DNA from: Clostridiaceae bacterium
GTDB taxonomy: Bacteria; Bacillota; Clostridia; Oscillospirales; Acutalibacteraceae
NCBI GenBank assembly: GCA_016288315.1
Contig: JAEEYU010000007.1
Coordinates: forward strand, 1-64,000
Reading direction: 5' to 3'
DNA: 64,000 bases
Position numbers and translations under genes: made by a program. Position 1 is the stretch's first letter, and each line of letters starts with the position of its first letter. The notes beneath the pieces were generated by a model. That model was not told the DNA's origin and did no database searches. It worked only from the letters and a program-made list of their open reading frames with translations. This document shows, piece after piece, positions 12,237-23,260 of this stretch.

Positions 12237-12626
12237 ATGACTCTTGAAGAAACCCGCGAGTTTTTCTCAGCGGACCGCTTTGCCACCTTCAAAACTGGCA
12301 TAACCATCGATGAAACCGGCAGAGATTACGCAAAATGCTCTTTCACTGCAACCGAAGACGATGTTGCCGCTCACGGTGCGGTTATGGGCGGCGCGATTTT
12401 CACCCTTGCGGATTTTACCTTCGCTGTTTCAACAAACACAAAGGAACAGCTCACAGTCACAACATCAAGCACAATCAATTTTATAAGCATGCCAAAAGAT
12501 AAAAAGCTCATCGGTGAGAGCAGATGCCTCAAAAACGGCAAAAAGGCGTGCTTCTTTGAAATAACAATCGTTGACGGCGCAGGCAATCTTGTTGCCACGG
12601 CGCTTTTCAACGGAATACATCTGTAA
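12237..12626 (+). CDS. PaaI-like hotdog-fold thioesterase
   Basis: 'DVAAHGAVMGGAIFTLADFTFAVSTN' hotdog motif. Confidence 0.85.
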   Translation: MTLEETREFFSADRFATFKTGITIDETGRDYAKCSFTATEDDVAAHGAVMGGAIFTLADFTFAVSTNTKEQLTVTTSSTINFISMPKDKKLIGESRCLKNGKKACFFEITIVDGAGNLVATALFNGIHL

Positions 12627-12641
12627 TTCCGAGGTGAAAAG

Positions 12642-14438
12642 ATGAAGGAATATGTAATGGGCAACGGTGCAATAGCTTTGGGTGCCCTGGCGGCGGGAGT
12701 CAATCTTGTTGCGGGTTACCCCGGCACGCCGTCCTCCGAAATAATTGAAACAGTTTCAAAATATCCGCACGAGGGTGTGCACCTTGAGTGGTCTGTCAAT
12801 GAGAAGGCGGCTCTCGAGGTTGCCGTCGCCGCCGCCTACAGCGGAGCGCGCGCCCTTGTTACAATGAAGCAGATGGGTCTCAACGTCGCGTCCGACCCGC
12901 TGATGAGCGTCGCCTATGTAGGCGTCAAAGGCGGGCTTGTCCTCGTCAGCGCCGACGACCCCGGCCCCATCTCCTCCCAGACGGAGCAGGACACCAGACG
13001 CTACGCCGATTTCTGTCGCATCCCCGTCTTTGACCCCTCCTCACCCGAGGAGGCATACACAATGATAGGCGATGCCTTCGAATACTCCGAAAAATACGGC
13101 ACTCCCGTTCTTTTCAGACCAACCACAAGGGTCTGCCACGCCTACGCTTCAATCGATATTCCCGACAAAACCTCGCCCAAGGAATATGACGGCTTTATAA
13201 AAGATTCGGGCAGATGGGTAATTTTCCCCCGTCTCTCATATTTAAATCACGGCAGAATCGAAGAGCGCAATGTTGAAATCGGCAAAGATTTCTCGGCTTA
13301 TTCCTTCAACACCGTGCAGAACCCGGAAGCCGAAAAAGCGGTTGTAACCTCGGGCATCAGCTACGCCTATGTCAGGGAGTGCCTCAAAAACCGCAGCGAT
13401 GTCCGGCTCATCCGCATTGCCACCGCCTTCCCGTTCCCCGAAGATTTTGTTCTCGGCGCCCTCGACGGAGTCAGCGAAGTGCTCTGCATCGAGGAGCTCA
13501 GCCCATATATTGAAGAGCAGATTTTAAAAACCGCAGGCATGCATCACCTTGATTTAACCGTTCACGGCAAGCTTGACGGCAGTGTTCCCCACAACGGAGA
13601 AAACAGCGTCGAGCTCTCTGCAAAGATCCTTTCCGGTTTTCCCGGTGTGCAGACGGCTAACGGTCAGGTTGACCTCTCCGGTTCTCCCGCACTTCCCGTG
13701 CGCCCTCCCGTACTCTGTGCCGGCTGCCCGCACAGGGCGTCCTTCTACGCCGTCAAGCAGGCGATGAAAGGTCAGAAGGCGTTTTTCTGCGGCGATATCG
13801 GCTGCTACACTCTCGGCAACGCCATGCCCCTCGACATGGTTGACACCTGCCTGTGCATGGGCGCAGGCATCACTATGGCTCAGGGTATGAATTACACTAA
13901 CGACGGCGTCTGCTTCGCCTTCACCGGCGACTCCACGTTTTTTGCTTCCGGTATGACGGGCGTTGTCAATGCGGTTTACAATGAGGCGGATATCATCCTG
14001 TGCGTGCTTGACAATTCCACAACCGCAATGACAGGTCATCAGCCGCACCCGGGCACGGGCCGCAATATGATGGGCAACTTTGTCGAAAAGGTGGATATAG
14101 CAAAGGTTCTCGAGGGTATGGGTGTCAGAAAGATTGTCACCGTAAATCCGCTCGACCTTGAAAAAAGCATAAAAGCCGTCAGGGAATGCGCCGCCGAAAA
14201 AGGCGTTAAGGCAATTATTTTCAAATCCCCCTGCATAGCGATTACAAAGCCCTCGGGCAGATGCTCGGTTGATTCCGGAAAATGCATAAACTGCAAAAAA
14301 TGCATCCGCGAAATCGGATGCCCCGCCCTTGTCACTGCAGACGGAAAGGTAACCATTGACCGCAACCTCTGCACGGGCTGTTCGCTCTGCTCGCAAATCT
14401 GCCCCGTCGGCGCAATCGGAGGTGAAGAGCATGAATAA
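12642..14438 (+). CDS. iorA: Indolepyruvate ferredoxin oxidoreductase, alpha subunit
   Basis: TPP-binding domain 'GDIGCYTLG...GAGITMAQGMN...FTGDSTFFASGM' and two C-terminal CxxCxxC ferredoxin clusters. Confidence 0.93.
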   Translation: MKEYVMGNGAIALGALAAGVNLVAGYPGTPSSEIIETVSKYPHEGVHLEWSVNEKAALEVAVAAAYSGARALVTMKQMGLNVASDPLMSVAYVGVKGGLVLVSADDPGPISSQTEQDTRRYADFCRIPVFDPSSPEEAYTMIGDAFEYSEKYGTPVLFRPTTRVCHAYASIDIPDKTSPKEYDGFIKDSGRWVIFPRLSYLNHGRIEERNVEIGKDFSAYSFNTVQNPEAEKAVVTSGISYAYVRECLKNRSDVRLIRIATAFPFPEDFVLGALDGVSEVLCIEELSPYIEEQILKTAGMHHLDLTVHGKLDGSVPHNGENSVELSAKILSGFPGVQTANGQVDLSGSPALPVRPPVLCAGCPHRASFYAVKQAMKGQKAFFCGDIGCYTLGNAMPLDMVDTCLCMGAGITMAQGMNYTNDGVCFAFTGDSTFFASGMTGVVNAVYNEADIILCVLDNSTTAMTGHQPHPGTGRNMMGNFVEKVDIAKVLEGMGVRKIVTVNPLDLEKSIKAVRECAAEKGVKAIIFKSPCIAITKPSGRCSVDSGKCINCKKCIREIGCPALVTADGKVTIDRNLCTGCSLCSQICPVGAIGGEEHE

Positions 14439-15024
14439 AGATATTCTCATCTGCGGTGTAGGCGGTCAGGGCACCGTTCTTGCGTCAAAGATTATCGCCG
14501 CCTCCGCAATGCAGGAGGGCAGCGTTGTTCACTCCGCCGAAACAATAGGTATGGCTCAGCGCGGCGGTCCCGTCACCAGCCACGTCAGAGTGGGCGAAAA
14601 CGCCTTTTCTCCGCTGATTCCGTCAGGCAGTGCGGATATCATCCTCGCATTTGAGCCCGGTGAAGCGGTGCGCAACCTTAAATATCTCAAAAAAGACGGC
14701 ATTGCAATCGTCAACACCTGTGCGGTCAAGCCCGTCACCGAGTCGCTTAACCCCTCCGGCTATGAAGGAACGGCGCAGGTTGAATACCTCAGAAGCAGGT
14801 GCTCCTGCATTTTTGTAAGCTCCGATGAGGTTTGCAAGCCATTCGGCTCGTCAAAGTTTTTCAATATTATCATCCTCGGAGTCGCAGCGGGCTCGGGACG
14901 TCTCGGCATAAGCAAAGAGACTGTCCTCGCTCAGATTGAAAAACGCGTTCCTCAAAAATTCATACAGACAAACAAAAACGCCTTTCTCGCAGGTTTTGAA
15001 ATCGGCGAATCGGCTGTGAAATAA
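14431..15024 (+). CDS. iorB: Indolepyruvate ferredoxin oxidoreductase, beta subunit
   Basis: 'ILICGVGGQGTVLASKIIAASAMQEG' gamma-type 2-oxoacid oxidoreductase; overlaps iorA. Confidence 0.92.
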   Translation: MNKDILICGVGGQGTVLASKIIAASAMQEGSVVHSAETIGMAQRGGPVTSHVRVGENAFSPLIPSGSADIILAFEPGEAVRNLKYLKKDGIAIVNTCAVKPVTESLNPSGYEGTAQVEYLRSRCSCIFVSSDEVCKPFGSSKFFNIIILGVAAGSGRLGISKETVLAQIEKRVPQKFIQTNKNAFLAGFEIGESAVK

Positions 15025-15036
15025 AGGAGAACTCTT

Positions 15037-16278
15037 ATGAAAATCAGCGAAAAACAGCTGTCCCTGGTTGACAAACAGATAAAGCGTATTATCGCAAGCG
15101 GCAACTATTACAGCGAGATTTATAAAAAAGCGGGCATAACCGGCGTTTCAACTCCCGAAGATTTTGAGAAAATCCCGTTCACCGACAAAGCGGATCTCCG
15201 CAATGCCTACCCCCTCGGCATTCAGGCGGTTCCCAACAGGGATGTCGTGCGCATCCACTCCTCTTCGGGCACAACCGGCAAGCCCGTAATTATTCCCTAC
15301 ACCCGAAAGGATGTTGACGACTGGGCGGAGATGTTTGCAAGATGCTACGAAATTGCAGGCATAACCCCGGAAGACCGAATCCAGATTACTCCCGGCTACG
15401 GTCTGTGGACTGCGGGCATCGGCTTTCAGGCGGGCTGCGAAAAGCTGGGCGCAATGGCTGTTCCGATGGGTCCCGGCAACACAGAGAAGCAGCTTCAGAT
15501 GATGATTGACCTTGAAACAACCGTCATCTGCGCCACATCGTCATACGCCCTGCTTCTTGCGGAGGAAATAAACAAACGCGGTTTAAGAGATAAAATCAAG
15601 CTCAGAAAGGGCATTATCGGCTCCGAGCGCTGGAGCGACGCAAAACGCAATTATATTGCCAGAGAGCTCGGCATTGAATTATATGACATCTACGGTCTTA
15701 CCGAAATCTACGGCCCCGGAATAGGCATAAACTGCCCCGACCAGACGGGTATGCATATTTTTGACGACTACCTTTACACCGAGATTATCAACCCCGAAAC
15801 GGGCGAGGTTCTTCCCGACGGCGAAGAGGGCGAAATAGTCATCACAACCCTTGTCAAAGAGGGCGCGCCCCTCATCCGCTTCCGCACACACGACCTGTCA
15901 AGAATCATCCCCGGCAGCTGCACCTGCGGCAGAACCTACCCCCGCCTTGACACAATCAAAGGCAGAAGCGACGATATGTTCAAAGTTCACGGCGTCAATA
16001 TGTTCCCGAGCCAGGTTGAAGAGATTCTCGGTCAGGTTGACGGCGTCTCAAGCGAGTATAAAATCGACATTGCCCACGATGAAAACAAAAACAGAGATAT
16101 CATTATGATTACTGCTGAAGCGGACGGCAGAGTCGATTTTGAAAAGACTGCCGAAAACATCAAAAACCTCTTTAAATCAAAGCTCAACATCACCCCGAGC
16201 GTCGCCATCGTCTCGCTCAACACCCTTCCCCGCTCCGAGAAAAAAACGCAAAGAGTCTTCGACCACAGAGGAGACTGA
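15037..16278 (+). CDS. paaK: Phenylacetate-CoA ligase family protein
   Basis: AMP-binding 'IHSSSGTTGKPVIIPYT', 'YDIYGLTEIYGPG'; follows iorAB. Confidence 0.88.
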   Translation: MKISEKQLSLVDKQIKRIIASGNYYSEIYKKAGITGVSTPEDFEKIPFTDKADLRNAYPLGIQAVPNRDVVRIHSSSGTTGKPVIIPYTRKDVDDWAEMFARCYEIAGITPEDRIQITPGYGLWTAGIGFQAGCEKLGAMAVPMGPGNTEKQLQMMIDLETTVICATSSYALLLAEEINKRGLRDKIKLRKGIIGSERWSDAKRNYIARELGIELYDIYGLTEIYGPGIGINCPDQTGMHIFDDYLYTEIINPETGEVLPDGEEGEIVITTLVKEGAPLIRFRTHDLSRIIPGSCTCGRTYPRLDTIKGRSDDMFKVHGVNMFPSQVEEILGQVDGVSSEYKIDIAHDENKNRDIIMITAEADGRVDFEKTAENIKNLFKSKLNITPSVAIVSLNTLPRSEKKTQRVFDHRGD

Positions 16279-16291
16279 GAATATCATTTTT

Positions 16292-16325
16292 AAAGGACTG
16301 TCTGCGGACAGTCCTCTTTTTTATA
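16292..16325 (+). terminator. Intrinsic terminator
   Basis: AAAGGACTGTC-TGCG-GACAGTCCTCTTTTTT. Confidence 0.85.
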
Positions 16326-16361: not shown

Positions 16362-16402
16362 ATGACAAATTGTAACCTGCTGTTGTATAATGTTGCAGGT
16401 TA
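16362..16402 (+). promoter_or_regulatory. Promoter with overlapping palindrome upstream of the AMP-ligase operon
   Basis: ATGACA (16362-16367), 18 nt, TATAAT (16386-16391). Palindrome TAACCTGC-N14-GCAGGTTA (16373-16402) encloses the -10. Confidence 0.55.
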
Positions 16403-16466
16403 AGCGCTATATAATATATATAATTATTATTTATTTTTCTAAATACACAAAAAAGGATTTTTTCGG

Positions 16467-18026
16467 ATGATTAATTACGGTAACGACAGCGGCTACAAAG
16501 CGCCTTCAATACGTCAGATTCTCGACGCCTCCGCCGCAAAATACGGCGACCGCACGTTTATTAAGTTCATAGAAGACGGCACCGTTCAGGAGAGAAGCTT
16601 CCGCCGCCTCAGGCAGGACAGTCTCGCCGTCTGCCGTTTTCTGCGCAACCTCGGCAAAGAAAAGCTGCATATCGCCGTCGCCGCAAAAACAAGCTACGAA
16701 TACATCGTGTTTGTCACCGGCATTCTCACAAGCGGCAATGTGCTCGTTCCCTTCTCACCCGATACTTCGGAGAAAGAATCTCTTTCGCTTTTTAAGCGCG
16801 CCGATATTGACATCCTTTTTTATGATGACGCCTACAACTGCACCGACAGGTTGAAAAAGCAGTTTGACTCCGTTATCTCACCTATGAATATCTCAGGCGA
16901 GGGTGTGCTCGCTTCAATAACCGAAAAATACTCCGACTCCTCCGTTTACGCCCCCCTCTCCGATTACAAAGTCAACATTGACGATTGCGCGGTAATCATC
17001 TACACATCCGGCACCACAGGCACGCGCAAGGGCGTAATGCTTTCAATGAACGCTCTTGTGGGCAACATTATGTATGACGAGTATGTTGACATACTCAACG
17101 AAAAAGCGGTTGTGCTTTCGGTTCTGCCGATGTTTCACGCCTACTGCCTTTCGGGCGACTATGTGCGCAACCTCAAGGACGGTCTCACCGTCTGCCTCAA
17201 CGGCAGCATGCGCGACCTGCCCGAAAGTCTCAAAACCTTCGAGCCCACTGTTATGCGTGTTGTTCCCATGATTGCGCAGACATTGCTGAAGCTTGTCAAA
17301 ATGAAAGAGAACCGCCATCCTGAATTAACACCCCGTCAGGCAGCCGAGGCGGTTTTCGGCAAAAACATAAAATGGCTCATTTCGGGCGCCGCCTACCTGG
17401 ATCCCTCCCTTGTCAGAGAATATGACCGGTTCGGCATTTTTCTGCGCCAGGGCTACGGCATGACCGAGGCCGGCTGCAGAATCTCCGTTCCCGATGCGGA
17501 CTGTTCGCTTGAATCCGTCGGCAGAGTCACAAATATGTTTGTCACCCGTATTCAGGGCGGCGAAATACAGGTCAAAGGCCCCACGCTTATGATGGGTTAC
17601 TACAAAATGCCCGAAGAAACAAAGGCATCCTTCACCGAAGACGGCTGGCTGAGAACAGGCGACATCGGCGAGGTTTCAGAAAGCGGCGAGCTTTTCATCA
17701 CGGGCAGGCTGAAGAATCTTATTATTCTCTCAAACGGCGAAAATGTTTCGCCCGAGGCAATCGAAAAGAAATTTGCCGATTATGATATCGTCTCGGAAAT
17801 ACTCGTCTATTCCGAAAATGACAGAATAACGGCTGATATATATCCCAACTTCGGTTACTGTTCCGACAATGACATTGACGACCCCAAGGAGTTCATAACC
17901 GCAATAATCAAGCAGATGAACGAAGGCGCCAAACCCTCCCATGTCATAACTCAGGTGCGTGTTGTCAATGAACCTCTCCCCAGAACACAGACCGGCAAAA
18001 TAATAAGAAAGCAGGCTGAGATATGA
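16467..18026 (+). CDS. Stand-alone AMP-dependent acyl-CoA/acyl-ACP ligase
   Basis: 'VIIYTSGTTGTRKGVMLS', 'QGYGMTEAG', 'GWLRTGDIGEV', 'TGKIIRKQ' adenylate-forming motifs. Confidence 0.85.
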   Translation: MINYGNDSGYKAPSIRQILDASAAKYGDRTFIKFIEDGTVQERSFRRLRQDSLAVCRFLRNLGKEKLHIAVAAKTSYEYIVFVTGILTSGNVLVPFSPDTSEKESLSLFKRADIDILFYDDAYNCTDRLKKQFDSVISPMNISGEGVLASITEKYSDSSVYAPLSDYKVNIDDCAVIIYTSGTTGTRKGVMLSMNALVGNIMYDEYVDILNEKAVVLSVLPMFHAYCLSGDYVRNLKDGLTVCLNGSMRDLPESLKTFEPTVMRVVPMIAQTLLKLVKMKENRHPELTPRQAAEAVFGKNIKWLISGAAYLDPSLVREYDRFGIFLRQGYGMTEAGCRISVPDADCSLESVGRVTNMFVTRIQGGEIQVKGPTLMMGYYKMPEETKASFTEDGWLRTGDIGEVSESGELFITGRLKNLIILSNGENVSPEAIEKKFADYDIVSEILVYSENDRITADIYPNFGYCSDNDIDDPKEFITAIIKQMNEGAKPSHVITQVRVVNEPLPRTQTGKIIRKQAEI

Positions 18027-19402
18027 ACAACCGCGAATATTTTGAATTCTCCCCCGCGCAGGAAATGATCAACTTCATGCTGAAGTATTCATTTTTTCAT
18101 AAACAGGTTATACAGATTCCCGCTTCAATAGTTGTCAAAAGAAAAATAGATTTCGACCTTCTTCAGAAGGCGCTTGAAATCGAGGTTCAGCGCAACGACT
18201 GTATGCGCCTTCGCTTTGAAAAAAAAGGCGGCTTCAGACAGTATTTTGAAGACAGCATAAACATCGGCAAAATCCCCGTTCTCAACTTTAAAACCCAGAA
18301 AGAGCAGGATGATTATTTAACAGCCGACGCGCAGAAGCCCGTTCGCTGCTTCAAGGGCGAAACCTACCGCATTTATTTCTTCAACACCCCCGACGGCAGA
18401 AACGGAATTTACATAAACGTCATCCATCTTGCCATGGATGCCCCCGCAGTGTTCATCTTCTTCTCCGACCTCCTCGCCGTTTACGAGGCGCTCGAAGCGG
18501 GCACGGAGCTTCCGAGACCTCTCGGCAGCTACAAAGAAACGCTTAAAAAAGAAATCGAATACAAACACAACGCCGACAAGCTCAAGGCAGACAAAGATTT
18601 CTTCGTCAACTACTTCCTCAAAGACGGCGAACCCATCTGGAACGGCGTTATGGGCGCAGGTCCCCTCGACAAGGCAAGAATCAAAAAGAAGAACCCCGAG
18701 CTTCGCGCCTGCGGCAGCTTTGACCCGATTCACGACAAAGCCGAACTCGCCCGCAGACCTCTCTCGGTTGAAGACAGTAAAATAATCCTTGATTATATGG
18801 AGCAGAACCGTCTGAGCGGCGAATGCGTAATCCAGCTCGGTATGCGCCTTCACGTCAGCAAAATCAACCACCGCCACGACGACACCCACTTCCTCGTTCT
18901 CTCCAACAGGCGCAAAACCGTCAACGACAAGCGCTGCGGCGGCACAATGGCTTCCGCCCTTCCGTGGAGAATCATCCTGCCCGAAGAGCTCACCTTTAAT
19001 GAAGCGGTTGAAAAGCTCAGAGTGCTCCAGGCGGAGATTATGCGCCACAACAACTACCCCTTCATCACCTGGCTCGAAAACGAGAGGGAGCTCTTCAACT
19101 ACAGCATGGTTGACGGCACATCAACAATGATGTTCTCCTGGTTCCCGCTTGAAAACGATACAATGAACGGCTGGGAATATGAATTCCACAGCTACAGCTT
19201 GGGCAGATACGTTATGCCGCTCTACACCTACTCAATGAAGGATTCCGTAACAGGCGGTCTGCGCTTTGCCTACCTTCACAGAATAAACCAGATTTCCACA
19301 GCCGATATAGACTCCCTTCACGACAACACCGTCAAGGCGCTCGTTCTCGGCTGCGCAAATCCCGATATGACGCTCAAAGAAATTCTTGATAAAATAGACT
19401 GA
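18023..19402 (+). CDS. Stand-alone condensation-domain-like acyltransferase
   Basis: HxxxD-type motif 'VIHLAMDAPAV' and an N-terminal acyltransferase-like layout 'QIPASIVVKRKIDFDLLQKALEIEVQRNDCMRLRF'. ATGA overlap with the ligase. Confidence 0.65.
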   Translation: MNNREYFEFSPAQEMINFMLKYSFFHKQVIQIPASIVVKRKIDFDLLQKALEIEVQRNDCMRLRFEKKGGFRQYFEDSINIGKIPVLNFKTQKEQDDYLTADAQKPVRCFKGETYRIYFFNTPDGRNGIYINVIHLAMDAPAVFIFFSDLLAVYEALEAGTELPRPLGSYKETLKKEIEYKHNADKLKADKDFFVNYFLKDGEPIWNGVMGAGPLDKARIKKKNPELRACGSFDPIHDKAELARRPLSVEDSKIILDYMEQNRLSGECVIQLGMRLHVSKINHRHDDTHFLVLSNRRKTVNDKRCGGTMASALPWRIILPEELTFNEAVEKLRVLQAEIMRHNNYPFITWLENERELFNYSMVDGTSTMMFSWFPLENDTMNGWEYEFHSYSLGRYVMPLYTYSMKDSVTGGLRFAYLHRINQISTADIDSLHDNTVKALVLGCANPDMTLKEILDKID

Positions 19403-19422
19403 GATACGAAAGGAAGAGAAAA

Positions 19423-19662
19423 ATGTTTGAGACTCTGAAAGCTCTTATTCTTGAATATGTTGATGTTGACCCCGAAATCATTACTCCCGATGCAAACCTG
19501 CGCAGTGATTTCTCGCTCAACTCCCTTGATATCATCAACCTCGCGGTTGCCATCGAAGACGAAACAGGCATTTCCGTCAGCGACCGCAAAATGGCTTCCT
19601 TCTACACACTCGGTGAGGTCGCCGATTATCTTGAAAGCGCAGCTGCAAAAAAGCAGGCGTAA
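19423..19662 (+). CDS. Acyl/peptidyl carrier protein
   Basis: 79 aa acidic protein with phosphopantetheine motif 'DFSLNSLDIINLAVAIEDETGISVSD'. Confidence 0.85.
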   Translation: MFETLKALILEYVDVDPEIITPDANLRSDFSLNSLDIINLAVAIEDETGISVSDRKMASFYTLGEVADYLESAAAKKQA

Positions 19663-19677
19663 GCACGCCTTTCAATG

Positions 19678-19706
19678 TTGACATCCCTATTTTAAGATGT
19701 TATATT
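19678..19706 (+). promoter_or_regulatory. Promoter of the small membrane protein pair
   Basis: TTGACA (19678-19683), 17 nt, TATATT (19701-19706). Confidence 0.6.
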
Positions 19707-19744: not shown

Positions 19745-20155
19745 ATGGCATGTTTTGTAGTTCCCGGCACTGAGGCAATAGTTGCCACAGCCGTATTAAT
19801 CGCAGTCAGACAGCACGAGAAAAAGCTTGCAGCCCCCAAACTCGGCAACGGCACAGCAGTTGAAAAAGAGAACAAAACTCCGTTCTCCAAAAAACTCGGC
19901 TGGCTCTGCTCCCTTCTCTGGGGCGGAGTTGCCCTTCTTGCATTTGAACACATCTGGCACGGCGAGGTAGTCCCCTTCCCGCCCTTCCTGACAGCCGCGG
20001 CAGACCCCGTCTCCAAGGCGGAAATGCTGCACGAAATGGGAACATCCGGCGTCGCCATGGCTCTTCTCGTTACGCTCATCTGGCTCGGTATGGTTATAAT
20101 CTCCACCGTGCTTGAAAACAAAACCGAAGCAAAAGCAGCGGAGGAAAACGTATGA
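19745..20155 (+). CDS. Small membrane protein of unknown function
   Basis: 136 aa, predicted TM segments by eye, good RBS (CGGAGGAATTTATAATG). Confidence 0.7.
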   Translation: MACFVVPGTEAIVATAVLIAVRQHEKKLAAPKLGNGTAVEKENKTPFSKKLGWLCSLLWGGVALLAFEHIWHGEVVPFPPFLTAAADPVSKAEMLHEMGTSGVAMALLVTLIWLGMVIISTVLENKTEAKAAEENV

Positions 20156-20454
20156 CGCTCCTCATTACCGTTTTTGCTGCGTGCATCGCAACTGCAGTCT
20201 GGTATAAAACAAGCGGCACAAACGAAATGAAGCCCGGCGTTCTTGCCCTTATGTATTGGGGCGCATCAATTATGTGGTTTGTTGACGCCGTCGTTGAGTA
20301 TGCGGAGCTTAAAAGCGAGTATTTCACTCCCGCTCCCGCCGATATGCTCAATGACTCCTTCCTCGGCTTCTCTGTTGTAGCCCTCGGTCTTATTATCTGG
20401 CTCGTCATTGTTATGATTAAAGACCCCAGAGGCGTAATAAGAAAAAAGAATTAA
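20152..20454 (+). CDS. Small membrane protein of unknown function
   Basis: 100 aa, about three hydrophobic stretches, ATGA overlap with the upstream gene. Confidence 0.7.
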   Translation: MTLLITVFAACIATAVWYKTSGTNEMKPGVLALMYWGASIMWFVDAVVEYAELKSEYFTPAPADMLNDSFLGFSVVALGLIIWLVIVMIKDPRGVIRKKN

Positions 20455-20463
20455 CACTTGCGG

Positions 20464-20500
20464 CGGCTTTGCCTGACGGCAGAGCCGCTTTTTGAAACTT
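20464..20500 (+). terminator. Intrinsic terminator
   Basis: GCGGCTTTGCC-TGAC-GGCAGAGCCGC followed by TTTTT. Confidence 0.75.
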
Positions 20501-20514
20501 TAAAAGGTGATTAT

Positions 20515-21270
20515 ATGAACAGTCAGACAAAGCAGATTCTTCGTGCTGTCGCAGACGGCACAATGAGCGTTGACGACGCACTCTTAAAACTCAAAACCGA
20601 GCCCTTTGAAGACCTCGGCTTTGCAAAGGTTGACCTTCACCGCAATATCAGACAGGGCGCCTGCGAGGTTATTTACGGTGCGGGCAAAACCCCGCAGCAG
20701 ATTGTTTCGATTCTGCGCTCAATGAAGGCAAACTCCCAGCCGCACATCCTCATCACCCGCCTTTCAGAAGAGTCTGCAAACGAAATCGGCAAAGCCGAAA
20801 AAATCGAATACTACCCCGAGGCAAAAATCGCCCTGTGCGGCGGTATGCCCGCACCCGACGGCATCGGGAGCATCGTTGTTGCAACTGGCGGCACAAGCGA
20901 CATCCCCGTAGCCGAAGAGGCGGCTGTCACAGCCGAAGCGCTCGGCAACACGGTTGTGCGCCTCTATGATGTAGGAGTCTCTGGCGTTCACCGCCTTCTC
21001 TCACACGCAAATGAGATTATGACGGCAACCGTAATAATTGCCGCAGCGGGTATGGAGGGCGCCCTCGCAAGCGTAATCGGAGGCCTTGCCGACTGCCCCG
21101 TAATCGCCGTTCCCACAAGCGTCGGCTACGGCGCTGCCTTTGAGGGTCTTACCGCCCTTCTCTCAATGCTCAACTCCTGTGCCAGCGGAGTCTCGGTTGT
21201 AAATATCGACAACGGCTTCGGCGCCGGCTACCTCGCAAGTATGATTAATCACATGGAGGCAAAACAATGA
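20515..21270 (+). CDS. larB: Nickel pincer cofactor biosynthesis protein LarB
   Basis: AIR-carboxylase-like 'ATGGTSDIPVAEEAAVTAEALGN...YDVGVSGVHRLL...AAGMEGALASVIGGL'; followed by larC and larE. Confidence 0.92.
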   Translation: MNSQTKQILRAVADGTMSVDDALLKLKTEPFEDLGFAKVDLHRNIRQGACEVIYGAGKTPQQIVSILRSMKANSQPHILITRLSEESANEIGKAEKIEYYPEAKIALCGGMPAPDGIGSIVVATGGTSDIPVAEEAAVTAEALGNTVVRLYDVGVSGVHRLLSHANEIMTATVIIAAAGMEGALASVIGGLADCPVIAVPTSVGYGAAFEGLTALLSMLNSCASGVSVVNIDNGFGAGYLASMINHMEAKQ

Positions 21271-22451
21271 GAAAAATTTTTCTTGACTGCTCAATGGGAG
21301 CAGCGGGCGATATGCTCACAGCAGCCCTCATCGAACTCACCGCAAACCCCGACGAATACATAAAAAAACTCAACTCACTCGGTATCCCGGGAGTTGAATA
21401 CATAAAAGAGAAAAGCGAAAAATGCGGCATTACCGGCACGCATATCTCCGTTAAGGTAAACGGCACCGAAGAGGGTGAAGAACATCATCACGGTCACGAA
21501 CACGAGCACCACCACGAGCACAGCACCCTTCACGGCATAACTCATATTATTGAAGATTTAAACGTTCCCGAAAAGGTCAAAGCCGACGCCCTCGCCGTCT
21601 ATGAGAGCATAGCAAAGGCGGAAAGCGAGGTTCACGGCAAAACAGTTGATGAAATTCACTTTCACGAAGTCGGCTCGCTCGACGCTGTTGCGGATGTCAC
21701 CGCCGTCTGCCTGCTTGTTCACGACCTCAACGCAGAAATATACTCAACCCCCGTCAACACGGGCAGTGGCTCGGTCAAATGCGCGCACGGCGTTCTCCCC
21801 GTTCCCGCACCCGCAACCGCAAATCTCCTCAAGGGCATTCCGGCATTTTCCGACGGCACGCAGGGCGAACTCTGCACGCCCACGGGTGCGGCTCTGCTTA
21901 AATATTTTGTCAGAGATTTCTGCAATATGCCCGTTATTGCCGCCGAAAAAATCGGCTACGGTATGGGCAAAAAAGATTTTGAAAGAGCAAACTGCCTTCG
22001 TGCCGTTCTCGGCGAAGAGCAGGGCACCGACACCGTCACCGAACTCTCCTGCAACATTGACGATATGACTGCGGAAGCCGTCGCCTTTGCCTGCGAACAG
22101 CTTTTAAAAAGCGGCGCTCTCGACGTGTGGACCACTCCCGTAGTTATGAAGAAAGGCCGCCCCGCCGTTATACTCAGCGTCCTTTGCAAAAATGAAGATA
22201 AAGCCCGCCTTGTCCGGTCAATTTTCAAACACACCTCCACAATCGGTGTCCGCGAAAATGTTATGAACAGATACACCCTTGAGCGCAAAGAGAGTGCGGT
22301 TTCCACCCCGCTCGGAGATGTCAGAATAAAAACCTCCTCGGGCTACGGCACCGAAAAATCAAAATTCGAATACGACGACCTCACTGAAATCGCGGATAAA
22401 AACGGGCTGAGTATAACTAAAGTAATTGAAGAGATAAACAAAAGCTTATGA
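21267..22451 (+). CDS. larC: Nickel insertion protein LarC (single ORF)
   Basis: 'DCSMGAAGDMLTAALIEL', His-rich 'EEHHHGHEHEHHHEH', 'FHEVGSLDAVADVTAVCLL'. Confidence 0.93.
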   Translation: MRKIFLDCSMGAAGDMLTAALIELTANPDEYIKKLNSLGIPGVEYIKEKSEKCGITGTHISVKVNGTEEGEEHHHGHEHEHHHEHSTLHGITHIIEDLNVPEKVKADALAVYESIAKAESEVHGKTVDEIHFHEVGSLDAVADVTAVCLLVHDLNAEIYSTPVNTGSGSVKCAHGVLPVPAPATANLLKGIPAFSDGTQGELCTPTGAALLKYFVRDFCNMPVIAAEKIGYGMGKKDFERANCLRAVLGEEQGTDTVTELSCNIDDMTAEAVAFACEQLLKSGALDVWTTPVVMKKGRPAVILSVLCKNEDKARLVRSIFKHTSTIGVRENVMNRYTLERKESAVSTPLGDVRIKTSSGYGTEKSKFEYDDLTEIADKNGLSITKVIEEINKSL

Positions 22452-23260
22452 CACTTACACAAACACTTACAGAAAAAATACAAACACTTGAAAACTGCGT
22501 GCGCTCGACCGTCGGCGGCATTGCCGTCGCATTTTCATACGGAGTTGACTCGACCTTCCTGCTTAAATTTGCGCACGATATTCTCGGCGATGAAGTCGTT
22601 GCCGTAACGGTCAGGTCGCCTTTTGTTCCCTCCGAAGAAATTGACGGTTCAATAAACTTCTGCAAAAAAGAAGGCATAAAGCAGATTATTATCGACGCCG
22701 ACATTCTCTCATCAGAAGACGTCTGTTCCAATCCTCCCGACAGGTGCTATATCTGCAAAAAGTATATTTTTTCGCAGATTACCTCAGCCGCAGAATTGGC
22801 GGGCATAATCAATGTTTACGAAGGCACGAACGCGGACGATATAAACGACTACCGTCCCGGTATGAAAGCACTCGATGAGCTCTGTGTTCAGAGTCCGCTT
22901 ATATATGCGGAACTCACCAAGGCGGAAATCCGCGCCCTCTCGGAAGAACTGAATCTCCCGACAAGCTCAAAGCCCTCCTTCGCCTGCCTTGCAACACGAA
23001 TTGCCGTCGGCGAACAAATCACAAAAGAGAAGCTGCAGATGGTCGAAAAAGCCGAGAGCTTCCTGCACAAAAACGGCTTTTATCAGGTGCGCGTGCGCGT
23101 TCACGGCAATATTGCGCGTATCGAGACCGAAAAACCCGACATCCTGCGCCTTGCCTCCCTCGCGGATGAAACAAGCGCATATCTCAAAGACCTCGGCTTT
23201 AAATTTGTTTCTCTCGACCTCTCCGGCTACAAAACGGGCAGTATGAACCTGCCGCTCTGA
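22448..23260 (+). CDS. larE: ATP-dependent sulfur transferase LarE
   Basis: PP-loop 'AFSYGVDSTFLLKFA', 'NPPDRCYICKKYIF', 'SSKPSFACLATRI'. Confidence 0.9.
   Translation: MTLTQTLTEKIQTLENCVRSTVGGIAVAFSYGVDSTFLLKFAHDILGDEVVAVTVRSPFVPSEEIDGSINFCKKEGIKQIIIDADILSSEDVCSNPPDRCYICKKYIFSQITSAAELAGIINVYEGTNADDINDYRPGMKALDELCVQSPLIYAELTKAEIRALSEELNLPTSSKPSFACLATRIAVGEQITKEKLQMVEKAESFLHKNGFYQVRVRVHGNIARIETEKPDILRLASLADETSAYLKDLGFKFVSLDLSGYKTGSMNLPL

Follow-up and report, generated by a model that had tools for sequence, protein, structure and literature searches.

The window, the whole stretch of 64,000 nucleotides that was analysed, carries on its + strand a three-gene unit (positions 16467–19662), in which, according to the open reading frame list and Pfam, a ligase gene is followed by the gene of a condensation protein and that of a carrier protein. 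The unit and its borders comprise the following features:

16294–16321, + strand: terminator-like hairpin with a 9 bp stem and a T run, closing the preceding paaK unit; consensus match only
16362–16391, + strand: promoter-like ATGACA-18-TATAAT ahead of the trio, matching 11 of 12 consensus positions; by itself no evidence of function
16467–18026, + strand: A, an adenylate-forming (acyl) ligase of 519 aa (PF00501, 178.8 bits; PF23562, 31.1 bits)
18023–19402, + strand: C, a stand-alone condensation-domain protein of 459 aa and OaaC homologue (PF00668, 85.1 bits)
19423–19662, + strand: ACP, an acyl carrier protein of 79 aa with the phosphopantetheine serine Ser34 (PF00550, 49.2 bits)
19678–19706, + strand: promoter-like TTGACA-17-TATATT belonging to the following unit and delimiting the trio; consensus match only

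The genes of A and C share 4 nt (ATGA), and the ACP gene starts 20 nt past the end of the C gene. A ligase, an HxxxD protein and a 79-aa carrier encoded by overlapping or closely spaced genes had been proposed from the letters alone (the sequence-only reading), and both the reading frames and the profile searches suggested there bear this out, the scores for AMP-binding, AMP-binding_C_3, Condensation and PP-binding all exceeding the gathering cut-offs. In agreement with the same reading, no thioesterase, reductase or large module was found in the operon by the Pfam scan; a 4HBT thioesterase gene (12237–12626) lies 3.8 kb upstream of the trio in a separate unit. An Rfam scan of the trio unit gave no match. 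Given the terminator-like site upstream and the promoter-like sites on both sides, all of which are consensus matches, the trio is most simply regarded as a transcription unit of its own.

The separate upstream unit (12237–16278) encodes the 4HBT thioesterase, indolepyruvate ferredoxin oxidoreductase-type subunits and a phenylacetate-CoA-ligase-type enzyme, and was read as an arylpyruvate-oxidation set. As general partners of the trio, iorAB-paaK were rejected, their homologues being found beside the trio in no other locus compared; the 4HBT thioesterase was likewise rejected, being found near the trio in only one other genome (locus L032, identical with L053). The downstream unit (19745–23260) starts with two small proteins of 136 and 100 aa that have no family assignment, a pair kept in L051, L052 and L054, and continues with larB-, larC- and larE-like genes, read from their translations as genes for lactate racemase cofactor synthesis. 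In the same genome (L156:6305–7609, contig C72 of G000), a second, remote stand-alone condensation-like protein of 434 aa (PF00668, 34 bits) is encoded, which adjoins a Na+/H+ antiporter gene and has no ligase or ACP nearby.

The two motifs noticed in the sequence-only reading were located precisely: the HxxxD motif of C corresponds to H135–D139, within NVIHLAMDAP, and the carrier serine is S34 in LNSLD. In the alignments, H135 and D139 were invariant in all 98 proteins of the clade to which the window protein belongs (window clade) and in all 14 of the clade holding OaaC, S34 was invariant in 19 of 19 carriers, and the ligase motif residues K188, E334, D399 and K511 were invariant in 85 of 85 trio-locus ligases; these counts include near-duplicates, some loci being present twice from different collections. 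C was modelled as a monomer using AlphaFold2 with 20 related sequences (mean pLDDT 91.9). The model has the condensation-domain fold that had been expected of the middle protein, and its best fold matches are NRPS condensation domains, with CDA synthetase C1 in first place (E 2.6e-28, TM-score 0.80) and the RzmA starter condensation domain also among the best. All eight modular C domains compared carry HH; the window protein carries IHLAMDA. A canonical modular NRPS (multidomain C-A-PCP with HHxxxDG) was ruled out by this motif and by the three separate genes.

Relatives of C were collected from three samples. Of 300 genomes of the same family, 52 gave a match, mostly to stand-alone homologues, and several of the weakest matches sit in large NRPS-length frames. 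In the rest of the order relatives are rare: leaving aside the window's own genome, 3 of 295 had one, and one of these belongs to the same family. In the wider phylum sample the sole other match sits in a 2348-aa frame. The best 80 named loci all come from uncultured Clostridia, and the hosts, where named, are goat, sheep, cattle, deer, reindeer, water buffalo and horse.

Gene order was compared for the 55 named loci with enough flanking DNA. The order ligase-C-ACP was present in 23 loci and C-ligase-ACP, with a ligase subtype of ~580 aa, in 15; the remainder comprised ligase-C-ACP-ligase (2/55), ligase-C-ligase (1/55), C-ACP without ligase (9/55) and C alone (5/55). Ligase and ACP were thus both beside C in 40 of the 55 loci, and in 13 of 13 loci of the OaaC clade, so that the neighbourhood check proposed at the outset favours a conserved set. 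As flanking genes vary by locus, except among close relatives, the trio itself is taken to be the conserved unit. Comparison with the nearest relatives, L051 and L054, gave dN/dS values of ~0.04–0.10 for the trio genes, with synonymous sites near saturation; all three genes are under purifying selection, and wherever all three were comparable the strongest constraint was found for C. Recurrence amid varying flanking genes and low dN/dS together place the trio far from a chance arrangement.

Several of the loci show peculiarities of their own. A second ligase gene follows the trio in L061 and L090 and the pair in L062; in L061 both ligases have AMP-binding domains. The subclade with C-ACP and no ligase (L043, L046, L093, L099, L100, L101, L103, L110, L116, L121 and L126) has the same upstream genes in several loci, and in L093 FHA-domain, FtsW-like, PBP transpeptidase and short-chain dehydrogenase proteins are encoded upstream of C-ACP. 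In L070, L072 and L096, C genes 51–52% identical to that of the window are followed by a GFO/IDH/MocA-type oxidoreductase gene, and no ligase or ACP lies nearby, L072 being close to a contig end. Directly upstream of the C-ligase-ACP trio of L109 (2096–11390; the L047 locus), a 1376-aa fusion of AMP-binding, PP-binding, thioester reductase (NAD_binding_4) and iron alcohol dehydrogenase domains is followed by a 566-aa GH3-family protein, and this region is perhaps a larger acyl-conjugate or acyl-reduction cluster. An alpha/beta hydrolase gene was observed on the same strand, ~1–1.5 kb upstream of the C gene, in the OaaC-clade loci L049, L050 and L161–L165, the hydrolases of these seven loci sharing 45–51% identity with the L049 enzyme; L049 and L050 additionally have related regulator genes ahead of the hydrolase gene, the one in L049 being of TetR type.

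In maximum-likelihood trees a 100/100 branch sets the stand-alone C proteins apart from modular C domains, and the window clade (100/100) was placed beside the clade holding OaaC (93/96), with a long branch between the two; the C tree as a whole is long-branched, and it includes few modular domains and none of the starter type. Architectures track this tree closely, 9 changes being required against a mean of 41 when shuffled. From its placement, the window clade is a sister branch to the OaaC clade, apart from modular NRPS domains. The sole strong PDB match of C in a sequence search was 12KH (residues 4–456, E 1.8e-39; the next match had E 1.3e-4), a link which was thus made by sequence and not by fold comparison. 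The protein in 12KH is the Coprococcus eutactus enzyme OaaC, which acts as the stand-alone condensation enzyme in a biochemically reconstituted fatty-acid-amide (FAA) pathway; together with the ligase OaaA and OaaACP it forms oleoyl aminovaleric acid as well as further fatty acid amides in vitro, and oleoyl-CoA is not a direct substrate (PMC13142362). OaaC is a homodimer that is opened by holo-ACP. The motif given for FAA condensation proteins is (D/H)HxxxD, then mostly S, A or G, of which the second His and the Asp are conserved (PMC13142362). The window protein, ~26–27% identical to OaaC, has the His, the Asp and the following A, and its first position is I, neither D nor H. Ahead of the catalytic His, S, H, I, C or T is found in the window clade and Asp in 0 of 98 proteins, compared with Asp in 12 of the 14 OaaC-clade proteins; the motif Asp is followed by A or N in window-clade proteins, compared with A or S in those of the OaaC clade. 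Since the residue ahead of the His has changed, the OaaC substrate should not simply be carried over to the window trio, the acceptor of which may differ.

On this basis, the trio is likely to be an N-acyl-amide synthase of the fatty-acid-amide type, built of free-standing parts and using a free small amine as acceptor. A phosphopantetheinyl transferase would turn the 79-aa ACP into its holo form at S34; this is probably AcpS, the sole such enzyme found in the genome, which is 78% complete, so that another may have been missed (one AcpS and one other ACP were found). Ligase A would then adenylate an acyl acid, most probably a fatty acid, before loading it onto the ACP. C would bind the acyl-ACP, with H135 aiding the attack on the thioester by a freely diffusing small amine, and the acyl amide would be freed without a thioesterase. 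Fatty acids are the likeliest donors, as a long-chain fatty-acid-CoA ligase is the top NCBIfam model for A, just as for the OaaC-clade ligase; it scored below the cut-off, and NCBIfam held no model above cut-off for either ligase. Of the chemistry originally proposed, activation, loading of the carrier and transfer to an amine are thus best supported, by homology; the acyl substrate, the acceptor and an amide rather than an ester are what we infer. Counterpoints to the amide-synthase reading are the low identity to OaaC (~26–27%), the long branch between the two clades, the altered residue ahead of the catalytic His, and the lack of the ligase or of both partners in some relatives.

Alternatively, the acyl group of the ACP might be transferred to a non-amine acceptor, such as a sugar, an alcohol or a lipid head-group hydroxyl, so that the product would be an ester or an altered part of the envelope. 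In favour of this, ester formation is within the reach of condensation-fold enzymes, the residues on either side of HxxxD are not the same in the window and OaaC clades, between which there is a long branch, and some C-ACP relatives adjoin cell-envelope genes (ftsW- and PBP-like). These neighbours, however, belong to another subclade and none is beside the window trio, and the sole characterised near relative, OaaC, makes amides, so we regard an ester-type product as unlikely. Still less probable is an aryl donor of the phenylacetate or indoleacetate kind, supplied by the upstream iorAB-paaK genes and ending in an arylacetyl amide: iorA, iorB and the phenylacetate-CoA-ligase-type gene do lie directly upstream on the same strand, and the solved structures closest to A include 4-coumarate-CoA ligases, but a terminator-like site separates the two units, homologues of iorA, iorB and paaK are beside the trio in no other locus compared, even where C is 88–94% identical, and A is matched best by family models of fatty-acid ligases. 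A known loading system with C inactive or incidental, either Dlt D-alanylation or an acyl-ACP synthetase, of which a ligase and a stand-alone carrier are also the core, is barely credible and was rejected, as a Pfam scan of ten adjacent proteins showed no DltB/DltD-like family, the 25 top-ranking NCBIfam models for A include no D-alanine ligase, and C, the most strongly constrained of the three wherever all were comparable, has retained the catalytic His and Asp in all relatives.

The proposed N-acyl-amide synthase has a further feature in the history of its parts. The C proteins of the window, L051 and L053–L059 are 77–94% identical and form one clade (100/99), while the ligases of the same loci come in several versions that are mutually only 52–62% identical, and the carriers diverge similarly. 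Between L058 and L060 the relation is reversed, with ligases 72% and condensation proteins 62% identical. The ligase data reject the condensation clade (AU p 8.5e-5) and the condensation data reject the L058+L060 pair (AU p 0.001), p values which are optimistic, as the groups were picked after the identities had been seen. Fast evolution alone as the cause of the low ligase identity was rejected for L058/L060 on the reversed identities, for which unequal rates alone are insufficient, and also by the AU tests. The discordant histories of C and ligase instead point to partners having been exchanged or recombined within an unchanged operon order; the carriers are too short to tell which partner they travel with. 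Tentatively, and with clearly less confidence than in the amide synthase itself, we propose that the window clade could be a separate acyl-conjugating branch of herbivore-gut Clostridia, with acceptors unlike the known FAA amines, in which C genes were repeatedly swapped between ligase (and probably ACP) partners and products diversified by the shuffling of single genes, not of modules.

Signalling fatty amides from gut bacteria, made by this route, are already known. If the trio works as proposed, fatty-amide-type signals would come from many uncultured Clostridia of farm and wild herbivores and would not be limited to a few human-gut strains. The discordant trees would moreover supply a set of partner exchanges made by nature, from which one could learn how the two halves of the product are each determined by one protein or another.

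Among known systems, the starter condensation domains CDA C1 and RzmA are lipo-initiating and use an acyl donor. They have the condensation fold in common with the window protein but, at 16–17% identity, are built into modular NRPSs, where the acceptor is bound to a carrier. VibH (1L5A), the amide synthase of vibriobactin synthesis, is a stand-alone condensation enzyme with a free amine as acceptor, yet it belongs to a siderophore pathway and takes an aryl donor, and its sequence match to the window protein is very weak (E 0.18). The closest counterpart is OaaA/OaaACP/OaaC, which like the window trio consists of three free-standing proteins (ligase, ACP and condensation protein) and has no thioesterase or large module; OaaC is homologous to the window protein over its full length and both have the catalytic His and Asp. 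The two differ in the motif, DHxxxDS in OaaC and IHxxxDA in the window protein, and in gene order, which is A-C-ACP in the window and C-ACP-A in 13 of 13 OaaC-clade loci examined. FAA clusters form a family in human-gut Clostridia, for which PMC13142362 cites Chang et al. (2021, Nat Microbiol); to the extent described there, they have the same minimal layout, whereas the window clade stems mostly from herbivore guts. The sequence-only reading had taken the trio for a candidate undescribed pathway, which we do not uphold: since it has the known minimal layout of stand-alone A, C and ACP of the FAA system of gut Clostridia, and its C is a full-length homologue of OaaC, the trio is, judged by homology, an uncharacterised further branch of the known FAA-type pathway.
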